From Bacteroidetes bacterium ADurb.Bin012 (GTDB lineage Bacteria; Bacteroidota; Bacteroidia; Bacteroidales; TTA-H9), in the NCBI GenBank assembly GCA_002071415.1, contig MWFC01000004.1:1-64000 (forward strand): DNA of 64,000 nucleotides. The letters run 5' to 3'. Under the pieces are notes generated by a model that saw only the letters and a list, made by a program, of their open reading frames with translations, did no database searches and had not been told where the DNA came from. This document shows, piece after piece, positions 33,530 through 50,562 of this stretch (position 1 is its first letter; every line of letters starts with the position of its first letter). The position numbers and the translations under genes are program-made.

Positions 33530-35689
33530 TTATTCTGTACTGCGGTCGTGTGTCTTATTTTTAAAATGGTTCCCTTTGAGCATTTTTCGAAACATATAAT
33601 ATTTTTCGTACTGCGATCTTATTCTCTGATCGGAATTTACTTTGCGGTATTCGTTAATATGTCCATCATGCAATGATCGAGCTTTTACATTGGCGTTCAG
33701 TTCGATCTGGATCATTTGCATGAGTTCCTTTTGAATGCCTTTGTCGAAGATGGGGCAAACCACTTCGATACGATGGTCGAGGTTACGGGGCATCAGGTCG
33801 GCTGAGCTGATGAAGTATTTGTTGCGGCCACCATTGCAGAAAATAAATACGCGTGAATGTTCCAGAAAACGATCTACAATGCTCAGAGCTTCGATGTTAT
33901 CGCTCAAATTTGGGATACCGGGTTTGATCACACAAATACCTCTTATTAAAAGTTTGATACTGACACCTGCCTGACTTGCCTCGTAAATTTTAATTGCTAC
34001 TTCTTCATCTACAAGGCTATTTGCCTTCAGAATAGCCCAAGCTTCCTTACCCGATCTTGCATTTTTTATTTCATTATTTAACTGTCGAATGATAAAACTG
34101 CGGATATTAAATGGAGAAACACAGAGGTTTTCGAAGGTGGGGGGAATGTACCGGCTTTTGAAAAGTGTAAATACTTTATCCAAGTCTTTCGTAACACGCG
34201 GGTCAGTGGTGAAAAGGCTATCATCTGCATAAACTGTGGCCGTTGATTCATTGAAGTTTCCTGTACTAACATTGCAATATAGCAGTTCATTCCCATCATC
34301 TTCCATCCTTTTTATGACCAGGAGTTTGGCATGTACCTTATAATCGGGAATGGTGGGAATAATTTCGACTTCTTCTTCCTGTAATCTGTTCACCCAATAA
34401 ATATTGGTTTCTTCTTCGAAGCGTGCCTGCAACTCGAGAAAAACCGTGACTTTTTTCCCGTTGCGTGCGGCGTTGATCAGGGAATTAATCACTGAACTAT
34501 CACGCGCCGTGCGGTAGAAAGTCATTTTTATTTCCTTTACCTGAGGATCGATGGAAGCTTCGCGCAACAAATCGATCAAGTACTGAAACGAATGATAAGG
34601 ATAATGCAGCATGATGTCGCGTTCTCGCATAATGGCCAGAATGCTGTGATTGGGAGGCAGCAGCGGATGAGCCAAGGGCGGGAAAGGTTCGAAATAAAAG
34701 GCCGGATTATTGATTTTGGGAAAATCCATAAAATCTTTAAAATTATGATATCTGCTCCCAGCTCTTAGTGTGTCCTTCTCGGTAATTCTCATTTTTTGCT
34801 TTAGCTTATCGAGAAGTGCTAACGGCATTTTTTCGTCGTAAACAAATCTCACCGGAACGCCTTTTTTACGCTGTTTCAGGCTTTCTTCCATTCGTTCGAT
34901 AAAACTCTTCGATACGTCATTATCGATGTCGAGCTCGGCATCGCGCGTAAATTTCACCGTATAAGCCTCAAAATGATCGTATCCGAAGACAGAAAAAATA
35001 TCGGGTAAACAATACCGTATCACATCATCCAGAAGAATGATAAAATGGGAATCCTTTTTGTCTTCAGGCGGTTGCAAAGAAATAAACCTTCCGGTAATAT
35101 GAACGGGGACTTTGAGTAAAGCAAATCGGGTCTTGCTCTTTTTGGCCGTATCGGCCATTTCCACTGCCAGATAAAAATTCTCATCCTTCAAAAAAGTCAG
35201 ATTCTTTACATTGTTCAGCATGATAGGAAAAACATACGATCGAATGTTCTGGTTAAAGAAGCTTCTTACATATTTCCCTTCTTCGTGCGTAAGTTCCTGT
35301 TCATTTACAATGAAAATCCCATTTTCTTTCATTTGACGGGTTAAATCCTGATAAACAGCGGTAAACCTTTTTTCCTGATTTTCGACTATACTGTATATTT
35401 CTGACAATAACTTCCTGGGATCGAAACTAATTCTATAATCGAGTTCTTTTTTTTGCATCAGCATGTTCATTCGATGAATCGTAGCTACCCTCACCCGAAA
35501 AAATTCATCCCGATTATTGGAAAAAATGCCCAGGAACTTTATCCTTTCCAGTAAGGGGGTGGTTGGATCGGAAGCTTCTTGCAAAACTCTTTCGTTGAAT
35601 TGCAGCCAGCTTATTTCCCGATTGATAAATAATCCATCCTCCAAATTATCTGTAGACTTTATGTACTCATTTTTTTTACTCATTGCCAT
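33530..35689 (-). CDS. ppk1: polyphosphate kinase 1
   Basis: A 719-residue PPK1 that makes polyphosphate from ATP. The N-terminal domain opens with LFINREISWLQFNERVLQEA. The phospholipase-D-like catalytic domains carry the phosphorylated histidine motif DYKVHAKLLVIKR and a second histidine motif NLDHRIEVVCPI, plus RFEEETNIYW. The open frame runs 62 codons further upstream, but that extension overlaps the neighbouring sixA-like gene in antisense-like composition. The ATG at 35689 (MAMSKKNEYIK) or the one at 35683 is the credible start. It is preceded by a SixA-like phosphatase gene 31 bases away on the same strand. Confidence 0.95.
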   Translation of the reverse strand: MAMSKKNEYIKSTDNLEDGLFINREISWLQFNERVLQEASDPTTPLLERIKFLGIFSNNRDEFFRVRVATIHRMNMLMQKKELDYRISFDPRKLLSEIYSIVENQEKRFTAVYQDLTRQMKENGIFIVNEQELTHEEGKYVRSFFNQNIRSYVFPIMLNNVKNLTFLKDENFYLAVEMADTAKKSKTRFALLKVPVHITGRFISLQPPEDKKDSHFIILLDDVIRYCLPDIFSVFGYDHFEAYTVKFTRDAELDIDNDVSKSFIERMEESLKQRKKGVPVRFVYDEKMPLALLDKLKQKMRITEKDTLRAGSRYHNFKDFMDFPKINNPAFYFEPFPPLAHPLLPPNHSILAIMRERDIMLHYPYHSFQYLIDLLREASIDPQVKEIKMTFYRTARDSSVINSLINAARNGKKVTVFLELQARFEEETNIYWVNRLQEEEVEIIPTIPDYKVHAKLLVIKRMEDDGNELLYCNVSTGNFNESTATVYADDSLFTTDPRVTKDLDKVFTLFKSRYIPPTFENLCVSPFNIRSFIIRQLNNEIKNARSGKEAWAILKANSLVDEEVAIKIYEASQAGVSIKLLIRGICVIKPGIPNLSDNIEALSIVDRFLEHSRVFIFCNGGRNKYFISSADLMPRNLDHRIEVVCPIFDKGIQKELMQMIQIELNANVKARSLHDGHINEYRKVNSDQRIRSQYEKYYMFRKMLKGNHFKNKTHDRSTE

Positions 35690-35720
35690 GCTGATGTAAA
35701 ATATAAAATTATGTTTATAC

Positions 35721-36221
35721 CTATTTATTGCTTTCCCAGGGGAATATTTTCTGTATTGTACTGGCTTTTGCTCCTGCCAATTCGGTCCAACTCTCGATGG
35801 GCAATTCAAGAATGACGACCCCCGAGGTTGGCAACCCATCCAAGGGATCGAGAAGAAACTGGTTGATGAATGCAAGGATATTAGGGTTGTGCCCGACTAT
35901 CATCACACTGTCGATGTCATCGTCGATGGAATAAAAAAGATCGGTAATATGGTCCTTATTTCCGTAGTAAACGGTTTGGCTGACTTGAATCTGATTTTCG
36001 GGATATTGAAAGAATGAAGCAAATATTCTGGACGTTTCAAAGGCTCTTACCGCATGACTCGAAATGATCAGACCGGGTCTGGCAATTTTTTCCTTTTGTA
36101 AGGATAGGATGATCTTGCTGATTCGTTTTTTCCCTTTGCTCAACAATGGCCTGTCCTCATCCTTGAGCTGAGGAAAATCCCATGAGGATTTTGCATGCCG
36201 GGCAACAATAAGTGTTTTCAT
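35721..36221 (-). CDS. SixA-like phosphohistidine phosphatase (histidine phosphatase superfamily)
   Basis: A 166-residue RHG-type phosphatase. The catalytic motif ARHAKSSW (His ~9) is at the N-terminus. The second conserved Arg/His region is SSHAVRAFETSRI, and the acidic/His motif VMIVGHNPNILAF is near residue 110. The length and the RHAKSSW form match SixA, which removes phosphate from HPt histidines. The substrate here is unproven. It is encoded just upstream of ppk1 and may be co-transcribed. This window also holds the remnant of an HPt domain, though far away. Confidence 0.9.
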   Translation of the reverse strand: MKTLIVARHAKSSWDFPQLKDEDRPLLSKGKKRISKIILSLQKEKIARPGLIISSHAVRAFETSRIFASFFQYPENQIQVSQTVYYGNKDHITDLFYSIDDDIDSVMIVGHNPNILAFINQFLLDPLDGLPTSGVVILELPIESWTELAGAKASTIQKIFPWESNK

Positions 36222-38355: not shown

Positions 38356-38427
38356 GGCCCGTTCGTCTAGGGGTTAGGACGCAAGGTTTTCATCCTTGTA
38401 ACAGGGGTTCGATTCCCCTACGGGCTA
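38356..38427 (+). tRNA. tRNA-Glu (anticodon UUC)
   Basis: A complete cloverleaf. Acceptor GGCCCGT pairs with ACGGGCT (first pair G-U), D arm GTCTAGGGGTTAGGAC, anticodon stem CAAGG/CCTTG with loop TTTTCAT (anticodon TTC), and T arm AGGGG-TTCGATT-CCCCT. Discriminator A; CCA is not encoded. TTC reads GAA/GAG glutamate codons. Confidence 0.96.
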
Positions 38428-38514
38428 CAAAATGAAGGTGAAGAGAGAAATCTGAAATAATTGATGTTTTCTGTTGTCGATGCTTCAATGGTGTTGAGTG
38501 TTTTTGTTTTAATT

Positions 38515-38730: not shown

Positions 38731-40116
38731 TTATTTATGCACTCTTTTTAAAAATTGCTCTATCTCGGGTACGCCACCTTGAAAAACAAGATAGCCATTA
38801 TAAGGTTCTCGTTCGGTAATTTCATCATTGATAGGAGTAAGCATAAGACGTTTTACTTCTTCGGGATCGTCGGTTTGACCTAAAACCCAGCTCAGTTTGA
38901 TGTAAGCAGTTTCGGGTAGCATATTGCCTGCTGGAATGATTCCTTTGGCCATCATATCGCGTCCAGTATCGTAAACGAACATGTGAACATAGCCCCATAT
39001 AGTTTGAACGGTCATAAACATGTGAATACCCAATTTATGTGCTCTTTCGATGGCGGGATAAAGTTCCTTGTTTACATGTCCCAGGCCAGTTCCTACAAAT
39101 ATAATTCCTTTATAGCCCATATCAATGATTCCGTTGAGTATGTCGGGATGCATGCCAGGGTAGTAATAGAGCATGGTAACCCTTTCGTCATAATAGGGTT
39201 TGATAATTACTTGGCGATCTTTTCTACGAGGATTATATTTTTTCTTGATGGGAGTGACGCCTTTACGTGTAACCATAGCTACGGGAGTGTCGCTAATCGT
39301 GCGGAAAGTGGAGCGGTAGCTCGAGTGCATTTTTCTAACTCTGGTTCCACGATGAAGTAAGCCATATTCATCGCTGGTAGGTCCAAACATACAAACTAGA
39401 ACTTCGGCTATGTCGCCATGGCCAGCGGCAGTCATGGCATGCATCAAGTTCAATGCGGCATCACTGCTTGGTCTGTCGGATGAACGCTGCGAACCAACCA
39501 AGATGATTGGTACAGGAGAATTCTGTACCATGAACGAAAGTGCGGCTCCTGTATGTGAAAGCGTGTCTGTGCCATGCCCTATCACAATGCCATCTACTCC
39601 TTTCTCGATTTCTTTTCCTATAGCTATAGCAAGCGCTTTGTATTGGGTAGGGCCCATATTCTCACTGAATACAGCAAAAAGCTTTTCGGTTTCGAGATTA
39701 CAAATGTCAGCTAATTCAGGCACAGCTCCGTAAAGTTCACCAGGCGTAAAAGCCGGTATAACCGCTCCAGTCCGATAATCGAGCCTTGATGCAATTGTAC
39801 CGCCAGTACCCAAAAGTTTTACCTTGGGGAGACCAGGTGTAAAAGGGAATTGCTTCTCGGGTATCTTGTAATTGGCTTTTTTATAACCTATCTCTTTCAT
39901 TTCGATAATGGTACGAACATCTATCCCAATATTGTAGCCGGTGGCTATCTTTATGACGATGTGTAAATCATCGTCGTTTTCTGCTCTGGGTAATACCGTA
40001 CCCTTGAAATCACCCCGACTGGTTTTTATTTCAGCCTGTCCCCATACTCTAACGTTGAATTGCTTCAATATTTCGAGTGCCCTGCCTTTATAGCCCTGAA
40101 AAATATCTTCACTCAT
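38731..40116 (-). CDS. gatD: Glu-tRNA(Gln) amidotransferase subunit D (archaeal type)
   Basis: A 461-residue GatD, the glutaminase/asparaginase-like subunit that supplies ammonia to convert Glu-tRNA(Gln) to Gln-tRNA(Gln). An N-terminal SH3-like domain (about residues 1-90, with the GRALEILKQFNVRVWGQAEI opening) precedes an L-asparaginase-like domain. That domain has LLGTGGTIASRLD (catalytic Thr, ~103-110), the second motif GHGTDTLSHTGAAL (~178-191) and GSQRSSDRPSSDAALN. The SH3-like extension separates it from ordinary asparaginases. GatDE is regarded as the archaeal form of this enzyme; bacteria normally use GatCAB. gatE is the next gene upstream on the same strand, 181 bases away. Confidence 0.94.
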   Translation of the reverse strand: MSEDIFQGYKGRALEILKQFNVRVWGQAEIKTSRGDFKGTVLPRAENDDDLHIVIKIATGYNIGIDVRTIIEMKEIGYKKANYKIPEKQFPFTPGLPKVKLLGTGGTIASRLDYRTGAVIPAFTPGELYGAVPELADICNLETEKLFAVFSENMGPTQYKALAIAIGKEIEKGVDGIVIGHGTDTLSHTGAALSFMVQNSPVPIILVGSQRSSDRPSSDAALNLMHAMTAAGHGDIAEVLVCMFGPTSDEYGLLHRGTRVRKMHSSYRSTFRTISDTPVAMVTRKGVTPIKKKYNPRRKDRQVIIKPYYDERVTMLYYYPGMHPDILNGIIDMGYKGIIFVGTGLGHVNKELYPAIERAHKLGIHMFMTVQTIWGYVHMFVYDTGRDMMAKGIIPAGNMLPETAYIKLSWVLGQTDDPEEVKRLMLTPINDEITEREPYNGYLVFQGGVPEIEQFLKRVHK

Positions 40117-40297
40117 TGTAAGTAATTAAATTTAGTTGATCCGATTATTATTGACAGCTTTTCCATTTTTCAATTATTTCAAAAAATAAAAAATCGAATA
40201 TTATTTTTTTTATTTCTAAATTAGCATTTTTAAACTGTTTATATATATCTTTAATAATCTTAGAATTTAGCAAAATACATGAATAGTTCTTCATGTT

Positions 40298-42340
40298 TTA
40301 CTCCTTTTCAGGCAATTGAACAACGGATTCGAGTAAATTTCTCAATTCAAACATGGAAATATTGCCCAAAGCAGTTTCCTGAAGTTGTCCCATGATCCAG
40401 TTAATTTTATTTTCAGGTTGAGGGTTGATGGCGATTTCGTCGAATTTTTTCGATAAGAAATTTATTTTGGAAAGGAGATCTTCTTTCGATACACGTTTAA
40501 ATTTAAGAATCGTAAGTACTGAGTCAAAATCCATTCCAGGGTGGTCGTAAACTTCGGGAAACATTTTTTGCGCCAGTCTCAAATCGAGATGATTATTCTT
40601 CAGGTATTCGAAGAGGTCGTAGATGCGGTCGAATTGGAATGTGGATGACGGACCCTTTTGTCCCTCGATATATTTGACGGTATGTCCCAGAAAACTTCCT
40701 GTAAACCGGGCTGGAACATCAAGCTCGGTATAGATGCGTTCGATGAGAGGATAAAGATTCTTCTTGAAGATGTAAGTAAATGTATCTTGAGGTACTTTCC
40801 ATTGAACCAATTGGTTATAACGAACCATGACTTCAGTGGGCAAATCTTTTTGAATTTCTTCTATATACTCATCGGTCAGAGGTATAGGTGCAGAATCGGT
40901 ATCGGGGTACATACGGTCGGCGCCGGGTAAAACGCGTTCAAATATAGTAGTACCGTCTTCGAAGGATTTCCGGGTTTCGGGTGGAACTCCGTCGAATGCC
41001 ATCCAACAGCGTTCTTCAATAGTTTCCAATGCGGTAGAGATATCATCTTCGGGCCCCCAAAAAACAATCTGAGCGTCATTTTCTTCAGCTTGCAATATCT
41101 GGCAGATTTTGCTCCAGTCTTCTTCATTAATTTCTGGTGTAAAGGACTCAGAATGCGTCATATTGGGCTTTTCTATGCAGGCAATTACCTTAAGTCGGTC
41201 AGAAATTTCGTTGGCAAAGCAATGCTCTGGTTGAGTGAAATGAGAAAGGATGCCGCGAAATTGAGAAAGGTTAACTGCAATAATCCGATAACGATTGTCG
41301 CGGGCCAAAATCAAGGCGGGCAAATCGAAATGGAAATCGAAAAAATTCAGACGTTTATAAGTCATTTTCCAGTTTTCCTTTTGGATACGAGATTGAAGTT
41401 TATCTCGAATGCGCAACAATGCCCATTGACGAAAAGATTCATTATGCGTTAATTCTGGAATCCAGCGGGTATGCGAAACACCTTTGATTTCTACACGATG
41501 ACCTCCTCTGCAGCTTACATTTACATCTTCACGTCCCGCGCCACTGCCCGTTCTTACATGTCCCGTGCTACGGTTGAGAAATCGAATATAATTGCAGGCC
41601 TCCATAACTTCATCGGGATTGGTGCAATCGGGATAGGTTACCGTTTCTATCAGGGGCATTCCCAAACGATCGGTTTTGAAAGTACGAAAATGGCCAATAT
41701 CGGAAATTTCACGGCAGGCGTCTTCTTCGACACTCAGTTGTATAAGCCTGATTTTCTTGTGACGTAAAGGAATTTCGCCTTCCACTCCCACAATGGCCGT
41801 GCGCTGAAATCCTGTGGGTATGGAACCATCGAGATATTGTTTTCGTGTAATATGTACCTCGCCAACGATATTTAATTTGGATAGAAGTGAAATTTCGATG
41901 GCAATTCTCAGAGCCTGACGGTTCATTGGGAAAGGAGGAGTATCGTCCACCTCATACGTACAGGCACTGTCATATTTGATTCGATAAATAATATTTTTTC
42001 GCGTTTTGAATTCCATTAAGGCAGTACCATCATATTCACCAAGTTCACTCAAGGTTGGCCGCATGTGCCGAATCACTTCGGCATCATAATCATCATCGGC
42101 ATGATAAAGGCCTGCCGGGCAATTGCAGAATAATTTTTTTTCGGTGAACAATTGTTGATGAACTTCGAGACCCGATTTGAATCCAATGCGATCGTAGTCT
42201 TCCTGAGTGGCTTGCTTACGGTTTACATAACCAACCTGTCGACGAGTTTCTTCATAATTGGCTTTTGCATCGATGGCTGAAAAAGTAAAATGCAGCGTAC
42301 TTTTGTTATTTTCTTGATTCTGAAAACGTTGTTTTGACAT
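40298..42340 (-). CDS. gatE: Glu-tRNA(Gln) amidotransferase subunit E (archaeal type)
   Basis: A 680-residue GatE, the kinase/amidotransferase subunit related to GatB that recognises tRNA(Gln). The cradle domain opens with GFKSGLEVHQQL (about residues 53-64) and LFCNCPAGLYH. It continues with YEVDDTPPFPMN, ITRKQYLDGSIPTGFQRT, EEDACREI and TGSGAGREDVNVSCRGGHRVEIKG (split here only for quoting). A GatE-specific AspRS-like insertion follows (~280-430), then the C-terminal helical/YqeY-like tail. About 50 residues precede the first conserved motif, longer than in archaeal enzymes as I recall them. The frame opens at a TTG (42364), but the ATG at 42340 is preferred. Confidence 0.94.
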   Translation of the reverse strand: MSKQRFQNQENNKSTLHFTFSAIDAKANYEETRRQVGYVNRKQATQEDYDRIGFKSGLEVHQQLFTEKKLFCNCPAGLYHADDDYDAEVIRHMRPTLSELGEYDGTALMEFKTRKNIIYRIKYDSACTYEVDDTPPFPMNRQALRIAIEISLLSKLNIVGEVHITRKQYLDGSIPTGFQRTAIVGVEGEIPLRHKKIRLIQLSVEEDACREISDIGHFRTFKTDRLGMPLIETVTYPDCTNPDEVMEACNYIRFLNRSTGHVRTGSGAGREDVNVSCRGGHRVEIKGVSHTRWIPELTHNESFRQWALLRIRDKLQSRIQKENWKMTYKRLNFFDFHFDLPALILARDNRYRIIAVNLSQFRGILSHFTQPEHCFANEISDRLKVIACIEKPNMTHSESFTPEINEEDWSKICQILQAEENDAQIVFWGPEDDISTALETIEERCWMAFDGVPPETRKSFEDGTTIFERVLPGADRMYPDTDSAPIPLTDEYIEEIQKDLPTEVMVRYNQLVQWKVPQDTFTYIFKKNLYPLIERIYTELDVPARFTGSFLGHTVKYIEGQKGPSSTFQFDRIYDLFEYLKNNHLDLRLAQKMFPEVYDHPGMDFDSVLTILKFKRVSKEDLLSKINFLSKKFDEIAINPQPENKINWIMGQLQETALGNISMFELRNLLESVVQLPEKE

Positions 42341-42499
42341 TAGAAAAGACGTTTGAGACTTCAAATGTAGGAATTCTCAATCTGACCACAAGGAATTCGC
42401 AATGAAAAGCATGAGAAGCCGATCGAAAACACTCACAGAAAATACATTATGAATTTCATTTCTTTTACCTTTTCCTCGAGATTTTTTTTGAGCTCTCCT

Positions 42500-45386: not shown

Positions 45387-46403
45387 TTAAGATATTTTAT
45401 CAACAAAATTTAAAACCTTGTCAGGATCAATTTTTTCTAAAGTTGGCAGATAGATAATACTATGAGGATCACGTCGTGAAAGGCCAATTGAATAAGCCTT
45501 ATCGTAAAATTGCAGTATCATCAAGCAAGCTTCCTTGAAACGATATTGCAGGATGAGTTGAGTGATGGTTTGGGTTTGTTGAAGACCGAGTCGTTTTCTA
45601 ATCTTCCAAACCATAGCGGCCAGTTCTTCTGGATTGGCCTGGCCATATTCTTTGGTGAGCCTTTCGGCTCTTTGTTCAGAAGGAATATCCAAAAAAATTA
45701 AAGGTGAAGCCTGCATTCGGTCAAAGATAGGCTTGGGAATGAAACAACGTCCTATACTTATGCTCTCATCTTCCACCCATACAGGAAATTGCGGATTAAA
45801 TGATGAAAGTTGTTGCCAGATTAGATTTTCAAATTGTTCTGTAGTAGGCTGTGGAGGCTGCATTAATCCACCAAAAACCGATCCTTTGTGATTAGCCAGC
45901 CCTTCAAGATCAAGTACCTGATGATGCATCTCGGCTAATCGAAATAAAAGTTCAGTTTTCCCACTTCCAGTCATCCCGCCTATTACAATGAATTTCCATG
46001 GGAATATGAAAGATTGATGGACATATCGACGAAAGGATTTATATCCTCCGACAAGCAAAACGGGATTCAAACCAGCCAATCGAGCAAGGAAAGCGGCTGC
46101 TGCGCTACGCATTCCACCACGCCAACAATATATTTTCAATTGACGGTCCAACGAAACCCTTATCATTTCGTCTATTATTACAGGAAGCCAGTAAGAAGTA
46201 AGAGATATACCAATTTTTACTGCAGAAACTCTACCCTGTTGAACAAAGGCAATGCCCACTTGTTTGCGAACTTCATCGTCGAGCAATGGAATATTAATGG
46301 CATCCGGAATATGGCCATGAGTATATTCGCTCGGTGATCGTACATCCACGCAAGGTGCATCAATCCTTAAAAAATTCTCAATATTTTTTACCGGGATTTC
46401 CAT
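45387..46403 (-). CDS. mnmH: tRNA 2-selenouridine synthase
   Basis: A 338-residue enzyme (MnmH/SelU/YbbB) that replaces the 2-thio sulfur with selenium in the wobble uridine of certain tRNAs, using selenophosphate. An N-terminal rhodanese domain carries the active-site motif YCWRGGMRS (Cys 93). A P-loop domain follows (GGMTGSGKTELL, ~142-153) with the family block VWVEDESISIGRCFIP. It implies that the organism makes selenophosphate, so selD should exist elsewhere. The ATG is 12 bases after the upstream T9SS type B gene's stop, so the two are probably in one operon. The wobble uridine of tRNA-Glu(UUC), encoded at 38.4 kb, is a known target class. Confidence 0.95.
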   Translation of the reverse strand: MEIPVKNIENFLRIDAPCVDVRSPSEYTHGHIPDAINIPLLDDEVRKQVGIAFVQQGRVSAVKIGISLTSYWLPVIIDEMIRVSLDRQLKIYCWRGGMRSAAAAFLARLAGLNPVLLVGGYKSFRRYVHQSFIFPWKFIVIGGMTGSGKTELLFRLAEMHHQVLDLEGLANHKGSVFGGLMQPPQPTTEQFENLIWQQLSSFNPQFPVWVEDESISIGRCFIPKPIFDRMQASPLIFLDIPSEQRAERLTKEYGQANPEELAAMVWKIRKRLGLQQTQTITQLILQYRFKEACLMILQFYDKAYSIGLSRRDPHSIIYLPTLEKIDPDKVLNFVDKIS

Positions 46404-48231: not shown

Positions 48232-48720
<489 letters not shown>

Positions 48721-48756
48721 TTATTGATGAATCTGATTTGTCGCATAGACTATAAA

Positions 48757-50562
48757 TTATCGTTTCTCGGCAAATGGTTTATATTGTTTTCCTCCTCCTT
48801 TGAAACCAGCATTCTTGTAAAATTCAACAAAGGTTAGACGCATAGGATGAACAAAAGCGCCAAGAGAACTAATGGCAATATTGCCCAAGTGAGCAATAAC
48901 AAGGAATACCACGAAAAGAAGAGGTCCGATATAGGGAATTCCAAGAATAGACATAGCCACGTTATTGATTACTATTCCAAGTATGGAACTGGAAATTCCC
49001 AAGGCAAAAAGTCGAATATAAGAGAGTAAATCGCCAAATATACCCGTTGCCATTCCATATACATCCCATAAACCTTTCCCAATTCTCACAAAAACATTGG
49101 TTTTTAAATCATTTAGGAAAAAGATCAATAAGCAGGAAACTCCTAAAATACTATATAGAACGATGGTTTCTCCTTTAGGTAGAACGCCGGCCGAAACCAA
49201 TCCTTGACGGATTAAAAGTCCCAAAATAAGGATCAACCAGCCAACCAATGAAAGTGCATTTCGAAACCCTTCTTGATGAGTAATATTAACAACTTTGATA
49301 CACATTCCGAATACAATTTGCACTGCTCCAAGTATCAAAGAGAGCACCAGCATCTTGTTACTATCGAAGAAATAGGATTTGATATTTTCCACAATGGGAA
49401 TATCAGCATCTATAAGACTGATACCGAAGAAGGTTCCCGAAATTGCTCCGAAAATAAAGGTAGCTAAACTAAGATACTGTGCAAGAGTTACATAAGGTTT
49501 GAATGAAGGTTTAGCTTTGAATTTCTTAAACAAGGTAGCAGCAATAAATATAAACAATCCGTAACCAGCATCACCTAAGCAGAAGCCAAAAAACATCATA
49601 AAGAAAGGGGCAAAGAATGGAGTAAGATCCAGTTCGCCATACTTGGGTAAAGAATATAAGTGGCCAATGGGCTCGAATAATTTCGCGAAACTATTGTTGC
49701 GCAGGAGGATAGGAACCTTTTCGTTTGGATCTGGCTGAGTTTCGATATAAAAAATACCATTTTCTTCGCAATACTTTTCAACGGTTTCTTTTGTTTCAAC
49801 AGGGGCAAAACCTTCTAAAATCTTCAACTTCCCTTCTGCTTCCGATAAAGTGTTGTTTACTACTACATGATAATCGACTTCGGAGGCAATTTGATGCAAT
49901 GTTTTCTGCAAAAGAGGAATAGAGCTCGCAGCCAGCCTTGCAAATTCTTCTTCAATCTCGCTAAGGCGTGTCTGTATAGCTTCCTGTTTTTTTAACAATT
50001 CACTCAGAGGACGTTCGGGTGCTTTAACTTCTTCGGCCGGCAAATCAATCTCTTCCTGACCTTCATTCACAAGAATGAAATAAATAACACCCGGCTGTTC
50101 ATTCACCACCCCAATATTGTATTTCGATAACCACTGAGGATCGAATTTACGAGAAGGTATGATATAAAAAGATATTCTCAATCCTGCTTTACGAAGTTTT
50201 TCGATAATTTGAGGGTCGAAATCTCCCCAGGGTTCAGTATATTCAATTTCCTTTTTCAATGTAGCGAGTTGCTGATTTAAAGACTCGACCTCTGCCTGTA
50301 AATCTCTAATGTGTTCAAATATTTTCATTCCATCCCCTTCTGAGGGCGCTTCAGCTGTGATTTCGGGTTTTTTATGCTTTTTAAGCAACTTGATGGTTTC
50401 AGCAACCTGCTTTTGCAAGGCAAGCCTTTCAGCTGCGTCTTTGTCGAGTTCCTTCTTCCGCTTTACGATATCTATAACACCCACAGATCGCAAGCCCTTT
50501 AGAAATCGTTCATAATCTTCATGATATACCAAAAAAATGAATTTGGTCATGGGGACTATCAT
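48757..50562 (-). CDS. ntpI: V/A-type ATPase subunit I (stator, a-subunit)
   Basis: A 601-residue membrane subunit forming the ion half-channels. The N-terminal half (about residues 1-300) is a soluble arm with coiled coils (LQAEVESLNQQLATLKKEIE). The C-terminal half has about seven to eight membrane helices, including FFMMFFGFCLGDAGYGLFI and FGDLLSYIRLFALGISSSI, the latter carrying the conserved Arg. Slightly short compared with ~650 in archaea. The ATG overlaps the subunit D stop (ATGA), so translation is coupled. Confidence 0.95.
   Translation of the reverse strand: MIVPMTKFIFLVYHEDYERFLKGLRSVGVIDIVKRKKELDKDAAERLALQKQVAETIKLLKKHKKPEITAEAPSEGDGMKIFEHIRDLQAEVESLNQQLATLKKEIEYTEPWGDFDPQIIEKLRKAGLRISFYIIPSRKFDPQWLSKYNIGVVNEQPGVIYFILVNEGQEEIDLPAEEVKAPERPLSELLKKQEAIQTRLSEIEEEFARLAASSIPLLQKTLHQIASEVDYHVVVNNTLSEAEGKLKILEGFAPVETKETVEKYCEENGIFYIETQPDPNEKVPILLRNNSFAKLFEPIGHLYSLPKYGELDLTPFFAPFFMMFFGFCLGDAGYGLFIFIAATLFKKFKAKPSFKPYVTLAQYLSLATFIFGAISGTFFGISLIDADIPIVENIKSYFFDSNKMLVLSLILGAVQIVFGMCIKVVNITHQEGFRNALSLVGWLILILGLLIRQGLVSAGVLPKGETIVLYSILGVSCLLIFFLNDLKTNVFVRIGKGLWDVYGMATGIFGDLLSYIRLFALGISSSILGIVINNVAMSILGIPYIGPLLFVVFLVIAHLGNIAISSLGAFVHPMRLTFVEFYKNAGFKGGGKQYKPFAEKR

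Follow-up and report, generated by a model that had tools for sequence, protein, structure and literature searches.

A GatDE-type amidotransferase operon in Bacteroidales genomes that also encode glutaminyl-tRNA synthetase

The gatE-gatD locus

The window analysed here, by which we mean the whole 64,000-nucleotide stretch of the Bacteroidetes bacterium ADurb.Bin012 contig, carries two adjoining minus-strand genes for the subunits of a GatDE amidotransferase. Both open reading frames are uninterrupted, and the features of the locus are as follows.

40298–42340, minus strand: gatE, 680 amino acids from an ATG, or starting at 42364 if an in-frame upstream TTG is used; N-terminal extension, GatB/GatE catalytic cradle, AspRS-like insertion, and a helical plus YqeY-like tail
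42173–42340, minus strand: GatE N-terminal extension ahead of GLEVHQQL, 56 residues, with the Bacteroidales motif NYxxT...GYVxRxxAT
40117–40297, minus strand: AT-rich spacer of 181 bases between gatE and gatD
38731–40116, minus strand: gatD, 461 amino acids; SH3-like GatD_N and type I asparaginase domains

All 124 loci in which we found both genes have gatE followed by gatD, adjoining and on one strand. No other neighbour is conserved with this pair, the best candidates (LptA/OstA-like, MlaD and NUDIX genes) each occurring in no more than 13 of 80 loci, and an Rfam search upstream of the operon returned no known RNA element. A tRNA-Glu(UUC) gene (38356–38428), the only tRNA-Glu among the genome's 41 tRNA matches, lies directly 3′ of gatD on the opposite strand. 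This adjacency is absent from other loci; across these, no tRNA is kept beside the operon and no unusual tRNA is conserved there. A few kilobases upstream of gatE is a gene for MnmH (tRNA 2-selenouridine(34) synthase; 45387–46403; 351 bits against a cut-off of 241), which acts on U34 of the tRNAs for Glu, Gln and Lys; it is likewise not conserved beside gatDE elsewhere.

Identity and structure of the two subunits

A first-pass annotation made from the sequence had recognised two intact GatDE subunits by their motifs, and profile searches bear this out, with both proteins passing equivalog cut-offs. GatD scores 495.2 bits against PRK04183 (cut-off 310) and 491.4 bits against TIGR02153 (cut-off 324). 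It also passes an asparaginase subfamily model (371.8 bits, cut-off 260.5), albeit below its GatD equivalog scores; given these higher scores, the presence of the SH3-like GatD_N domain (Pfam E 6e-11) and the adjacent gatE, a plain type I asparaginase was rejected as its identity. In 13 bacterial GatDs the catalytic Thr/Thr/Asp/Lys residues (T107, T183, D184 and K262) do not vary, and archaeal GatD aligns with them. The SH3-like extension and asparaginase motifs reported earlier are both in place. A conserved C-terminal stretch, NxYLxxQGGxPExExF, runs past the end of archaeal GatD.

GatE passes TIGR00134 clearly (393.2 bits, cut-off 319.6) and PRK04028 narrowly (457.2 bits, cut-off 456), and reaches only 105.3 bits on the GatB equivalog model, for which the cut-off is 314.8. 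These scores place the protein in the GatE and not the GatB family. The active-site motif residues E67, H69, E213, E214, E240, R278, D280, N282 and K294 (numbered on the 688-residue form) are identical in all 140 bacterial and all three archaeal sequences compared.

An AlphaFold model of GatE, built from a 28-sequence alignment (mean pLDDT 78.7, with some loops low), has as its best VIA matches the archaeal GatE structures 2d6f (Z 28.8) and 1zq1 (Z 25.8); the same archaeal pairs are the solved relatives found by sequence for both GatD and GatE. The cradle, AspRS-like insertion and tail proposed from the sequence are all recovered in the model. Residues 321–450 match the AspRS insertion domain (Z 11.1 to 1c0a), and the C-terminal end (616–674) matches YqeY (Z 6.9 to 8xjg). 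The Pfam tail match (E 4.8e-5) falls under the curated cut-off, and Pfam GAD was not detected in the Bacteroidales GatE members scanned. The long N-terminus, estimated earlier at about 50 residues, comes to 56 if the ATG is the start, with GLEVHQQL beginning at residue 57, and residues 21–50 of this extension (680-residue form) are modelled with high confidence. The corresponding segment is typically ∼38 residues in Bacteroidales GatE; in the phylum's other classes it is ∼24.

The likeness to archaeal GatDE of M. thermautotrophicus (2d6f) and P. abyssi (1zq1) thus extends to the two-subunit composition, an SH3-like plus asparaginase GatD, the GatE cradle, AspRS-like insertion and YqeY tail, the active-site residues and the fold (Z 26–29). 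The bacterial proteins differ in the longer GatE N-terminus, in the extended GatD C-terminus, and in a motif that reads DEEPPH/R in archaeal GatE and DDTPPF in essentially all 140 bacterial sequences. Identity between bacterial and archaeal GatE is 41% over the first part of the cradle but 21% for the insertion and ∼17% for the tail. GatB of bacterial GatCAB is homologous to GatE as the kinase-amidase subunit, and the overall chemistry of GatCAB and GatDE is alike; the amidase partner here, however, is the asparaginase-type GatD and not GatA, and no GatB was found elsewhere in this genome assembly (97.7% complete).

Distribution, origin and selection

GatE is present in 105 of 247 sampled genomes of the same order (71 of 166 genera) and absent from the other 142. 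Across a sample of the phylum it occurs in 30 of 394 genomes, spread over many families. A named genome collection yielded at least 560 stretches with relatives; the best 80 are nearly all from Bacteroidales and include cultured carriers, namely Perlabentimonas gracilis, Marinifilum flexuosum and Labilibaculum species. The records of a few relatives bear the labels Aminicenantes, Saprospiraceae or Chlorobiota, which we report as record labels only. Apart from GatB matches, a search of phages and plasmids for GatE returned only one fragmentary copy, of haloarchaeal origin. It lies on a megaplasmid of Natrinema thermotolerans (L279:3001–4900) and is an unannotated GatE-like sequence split over two frames, which may be a pseudogene or may reflect a sequencing error.

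In a GatB-rooted tree (228 columns) the bacterial GatE sequences form a clade of their own (UFBoot 98) and archaeal GatE another (UFBoot 100). The archaeal side comprises the three available sequences, all euryarchaeal, and the tree therefore shows only that there was no recent copying from those lineages. Bacterial GatDE may derive from an ancient transfer out of an unsampled archaeal lineage. L031, which comes from another class, has a GatE that falls inside the Bacteroidales type; compared with the window it is 63% identical in GatE and 81% in GatD, and it is likely from these sequences that gatDE has moved between lineages inside the phylum.

The first-pass annotation had left a choice between gene transfer from archaea and an under-described bacterial lineage. 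The second stands, given the 105 of 247 and 30 of 394 genomes and the separate clade; one recent acquisition by this genome alone is not supported. We regard a recent archaeal transfer, a binning contaminant or a chimeric contig as extremely improbable. The estimated contamination of the assembly (3%) and the description of GatDE as archaeal in the literature would speak for such an origin, but the nearest relatives are bacterial (identity up to 69% for GatE and 81% for GatD), bacterial carriers number in the hundreds, the bacterial clade lies outside the archaeal sequences, and the GC content of gatDE (0.42–0.43) is near that of the flanks (0.40).

The pair is under purifying selection. In the two close sequence pairs whose dS is unsaturated or moderate, dN/dS is ∼0.07–0.08 for gatE and 0.02–0.04 for gatD, which indicates selective maintenance and argues against a relic. 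That gatDE is a decaying relic or an accidental, functionless survivor is accordingly very improbable; GatE is missing from 142 of the 247 genomes of the order, as a relic might be, but dN/dS is well below 0.1, the frames are intact in distant families, and the cradle is ∼81% identical across Bacteroidales.

Coexistence with GlnRS and the proposed role

The genome that carries the window also encodes a full-length GlnRS (729 bits), an AsnRS and a single GluRS. The archaeal setting, in which GlnRS is lacking, does not apply here, and Gln-tRNA(Gln) formation does not depend on GatDE alone. Within the order, GlnRS matches were found in 236 of 247 genomes and in 100 of the 105 that have GatE. Genomes with no GlnRS match are equally scarce with GatE (5/105) and without it (6/142; Fisher p = 1.0), and substitution of GatDE for GlnRS was rejected because GlnRS absence does not track GatE. 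GatB is rare, occurring in six of the 247 genomes, three of them GatE-positive (3/105). Of the 30 phylum-sample genomes with GatE, 27 have GlnRS; among these carriers, GatB was found in 22 of the 29 others. GatDE thus occurs together with the direct route, and in some genomes with GatCAB too, which weakens the idea implicit in the first-pass annotation that this organism obtains its Gln-tRNA(Gln) through GatDE. Two genomes of the order sample (G404 and G462) have no GlnRS match but do have GatB, as if GatCAB had replaced GlnRS; in contrast, GatE-positive genomes retain GlnRS.

Retention of an amidotransferase despite direct synthetases is also seen in bacteria such as Deinococcus and Bdellovibrio, which have GlnRS and GatCAB, and there it is tied to Asn-tRNA(Asn) formation (PMC4206432). 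The present case differs in that the retained enzyme is GatDE, whose archaeal form is described as specific for Gln, and in that the genome has an AsnRS too.

In this enzyme family, GatD releases ammonia from Gln or Asn; GatE activates the Glu side chain of Glu-tRNA(Gln) by phosphorylation and then uses that ammonia to amidate it. Since the bacterial enzyme occurs beside GlnRS here and in most relatives, we infer an auxiliary job for it. Our preferred reading, to which we give roughly even chances, is that bacterial GatDE is a functional Glu-tRNA(Gln) amidotransferase auxiliary to GlnRS. Glu-tRNA(Gln) could arise through GluRS or GlnRS error, or in glutamine shortage, and GatDE would amidate it to Gln-tRNA(Gln), either as repair or as a backup for GlnRS. 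Because GatD-type amidases can take Asn, Gln-tRNA(Gln) might still be supplied under glutamine shortage. The equivalog scores, active sites, full set of GatE domains, gatE-gatD linkage, low dN/dS, coexistence with GlnRS, rarity of GatB and the small D loop of tRNA-Gln (see below) all favour this auxiliary role; the Arg358-type GluRS in 91 of 91 genomes, the similarity of tRNA-Gln(UUG) with and without GatE, the absence of GatE from more than half of the order, the DDTPPF change and a tail only ∼17% identical to archaeal sequences count against it.

The GluRS residue aligned with Arg358 of T. thermophilus is Arg in all 48 GatE-positive and all 43 GatE-negative genomes, which suggests a discriminating enzyme and gives no indication of a non-discriminating GluRS feeding GatDE; this candidate was therefore rejected. 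No alignment column cleanly separates the GluRS of GatE-positive from that of GatE-negative genomes among these 91. The marker is not universal, having failed in H. pylori (PMC3927822), and this exception, the purifying selection on gatDE and the small D loop would be compatible with a GluRS that is non-discriminating in vivo, such that much of the Gln-tRNA(Gln) would come from GatDE, with GlnRS as a second source. With Arg in 91 of 91 genomes, no obvious GluRS difference between carriers and non-carriers, and no clear loss of GlnRS wherever GatDE occurs, we consider such a main parallel route distinctly unlikely.

The first-pass annotation also raised the identity elements that GatE needs in tRNA(Gln). 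The archaeal enzyme reportedly recognises the A1-U72 pair together with the D loop (PMC9499178). The tRNA-Gln here is bacterial-type, with A73 and with U1-A72 in place of the archaeal pair. The UUG form has a small 7-base D loop, found in 35 of 37 GatE-positive genomes and, counting carriers and non-carriers together, in nearly all those checked, which is the kind of feature that the GatDE tail reportedly reads (PMC4810234). Nothing in tRNA-Gln(UUG) was seen to be peculiar to GatE-positive genomes, in a sample that favoured tRNAs most like that of the window. Bacterial GatDE must therefore either recognise tRNA(Gln) in a somewhat different way or have another target.

Another target is the main rival to the auxiliary role. 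The bacterial branch would retain GatDE chemistry and amidate something else, for example a different misacylated tRNA, and GatDE's redundancy with GlnRS in nearly every genome, the branch-wide DEEPP to DDTPPF change in essentially all 140 sequences, the GatE N-terminal and GatD C-terminal extensions, the diverged tail and insertion, and the missing A1-U72 pair can all be read this way. Nevertheless, every tRNA-holding domain is retained in the predicted fold, the active-site residues are the same as in archaea, the operon conserves no partner gene or unusual tRNA, and the differences could reflect adaptation to bacterial tRNA(Gln); a changed substrate is thus, in our view, rather unlikely. 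Returning to the auxiliary reading, a broader formulation, offered tentatively and at somewhat less than even chances, is that bacterial GatDE is a subfamily of long standing in Bacteroidota which no longer provides bulk Gln-tRNA(Gln) and would instead act beside GlnRS, either proofreading misacylated tRNA by amidation or working on another substrate.

Two reviews, one of them PMC9499178, call GatDE archaea-only, and the absence of GlnRS from archaea has been explained in reviews by GatDE and archaeal tRNA(Gln) having evolved together. With a large bacterial GatDE clade beside GlnRS and bacterial tRNA(Gln), the archaea-only premise falls, and the clade also bears on the presence of GatDE in LUCA. 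We found no account of bacterial GatDE in the open-access papers searched; bacterial gatD and gatE are already annotated, since database models label them, though apparently not discussed in print. Specificity of Bacteroidetes GluRS has been assigned from the presence of GatCAB (PMC3927822), and predictions made on that basis alone are unsafe for bacteria that carry GatDE. Cultured Marinifilum and Labilibaculum make the question experimentally accessible.

Two other regions of the window are of note. Positions 48232–50562 encode V-type ATPase K- and I-like subunits in this bacterial genome, with scores below the NCBIfam equivalog cut-offs. At 33530–36221 a Polyphosphate kinase 1 open reading frame overlaps one for a SixA-like phosphohistidine phosphatase, the SixA model score being below its cut-off.
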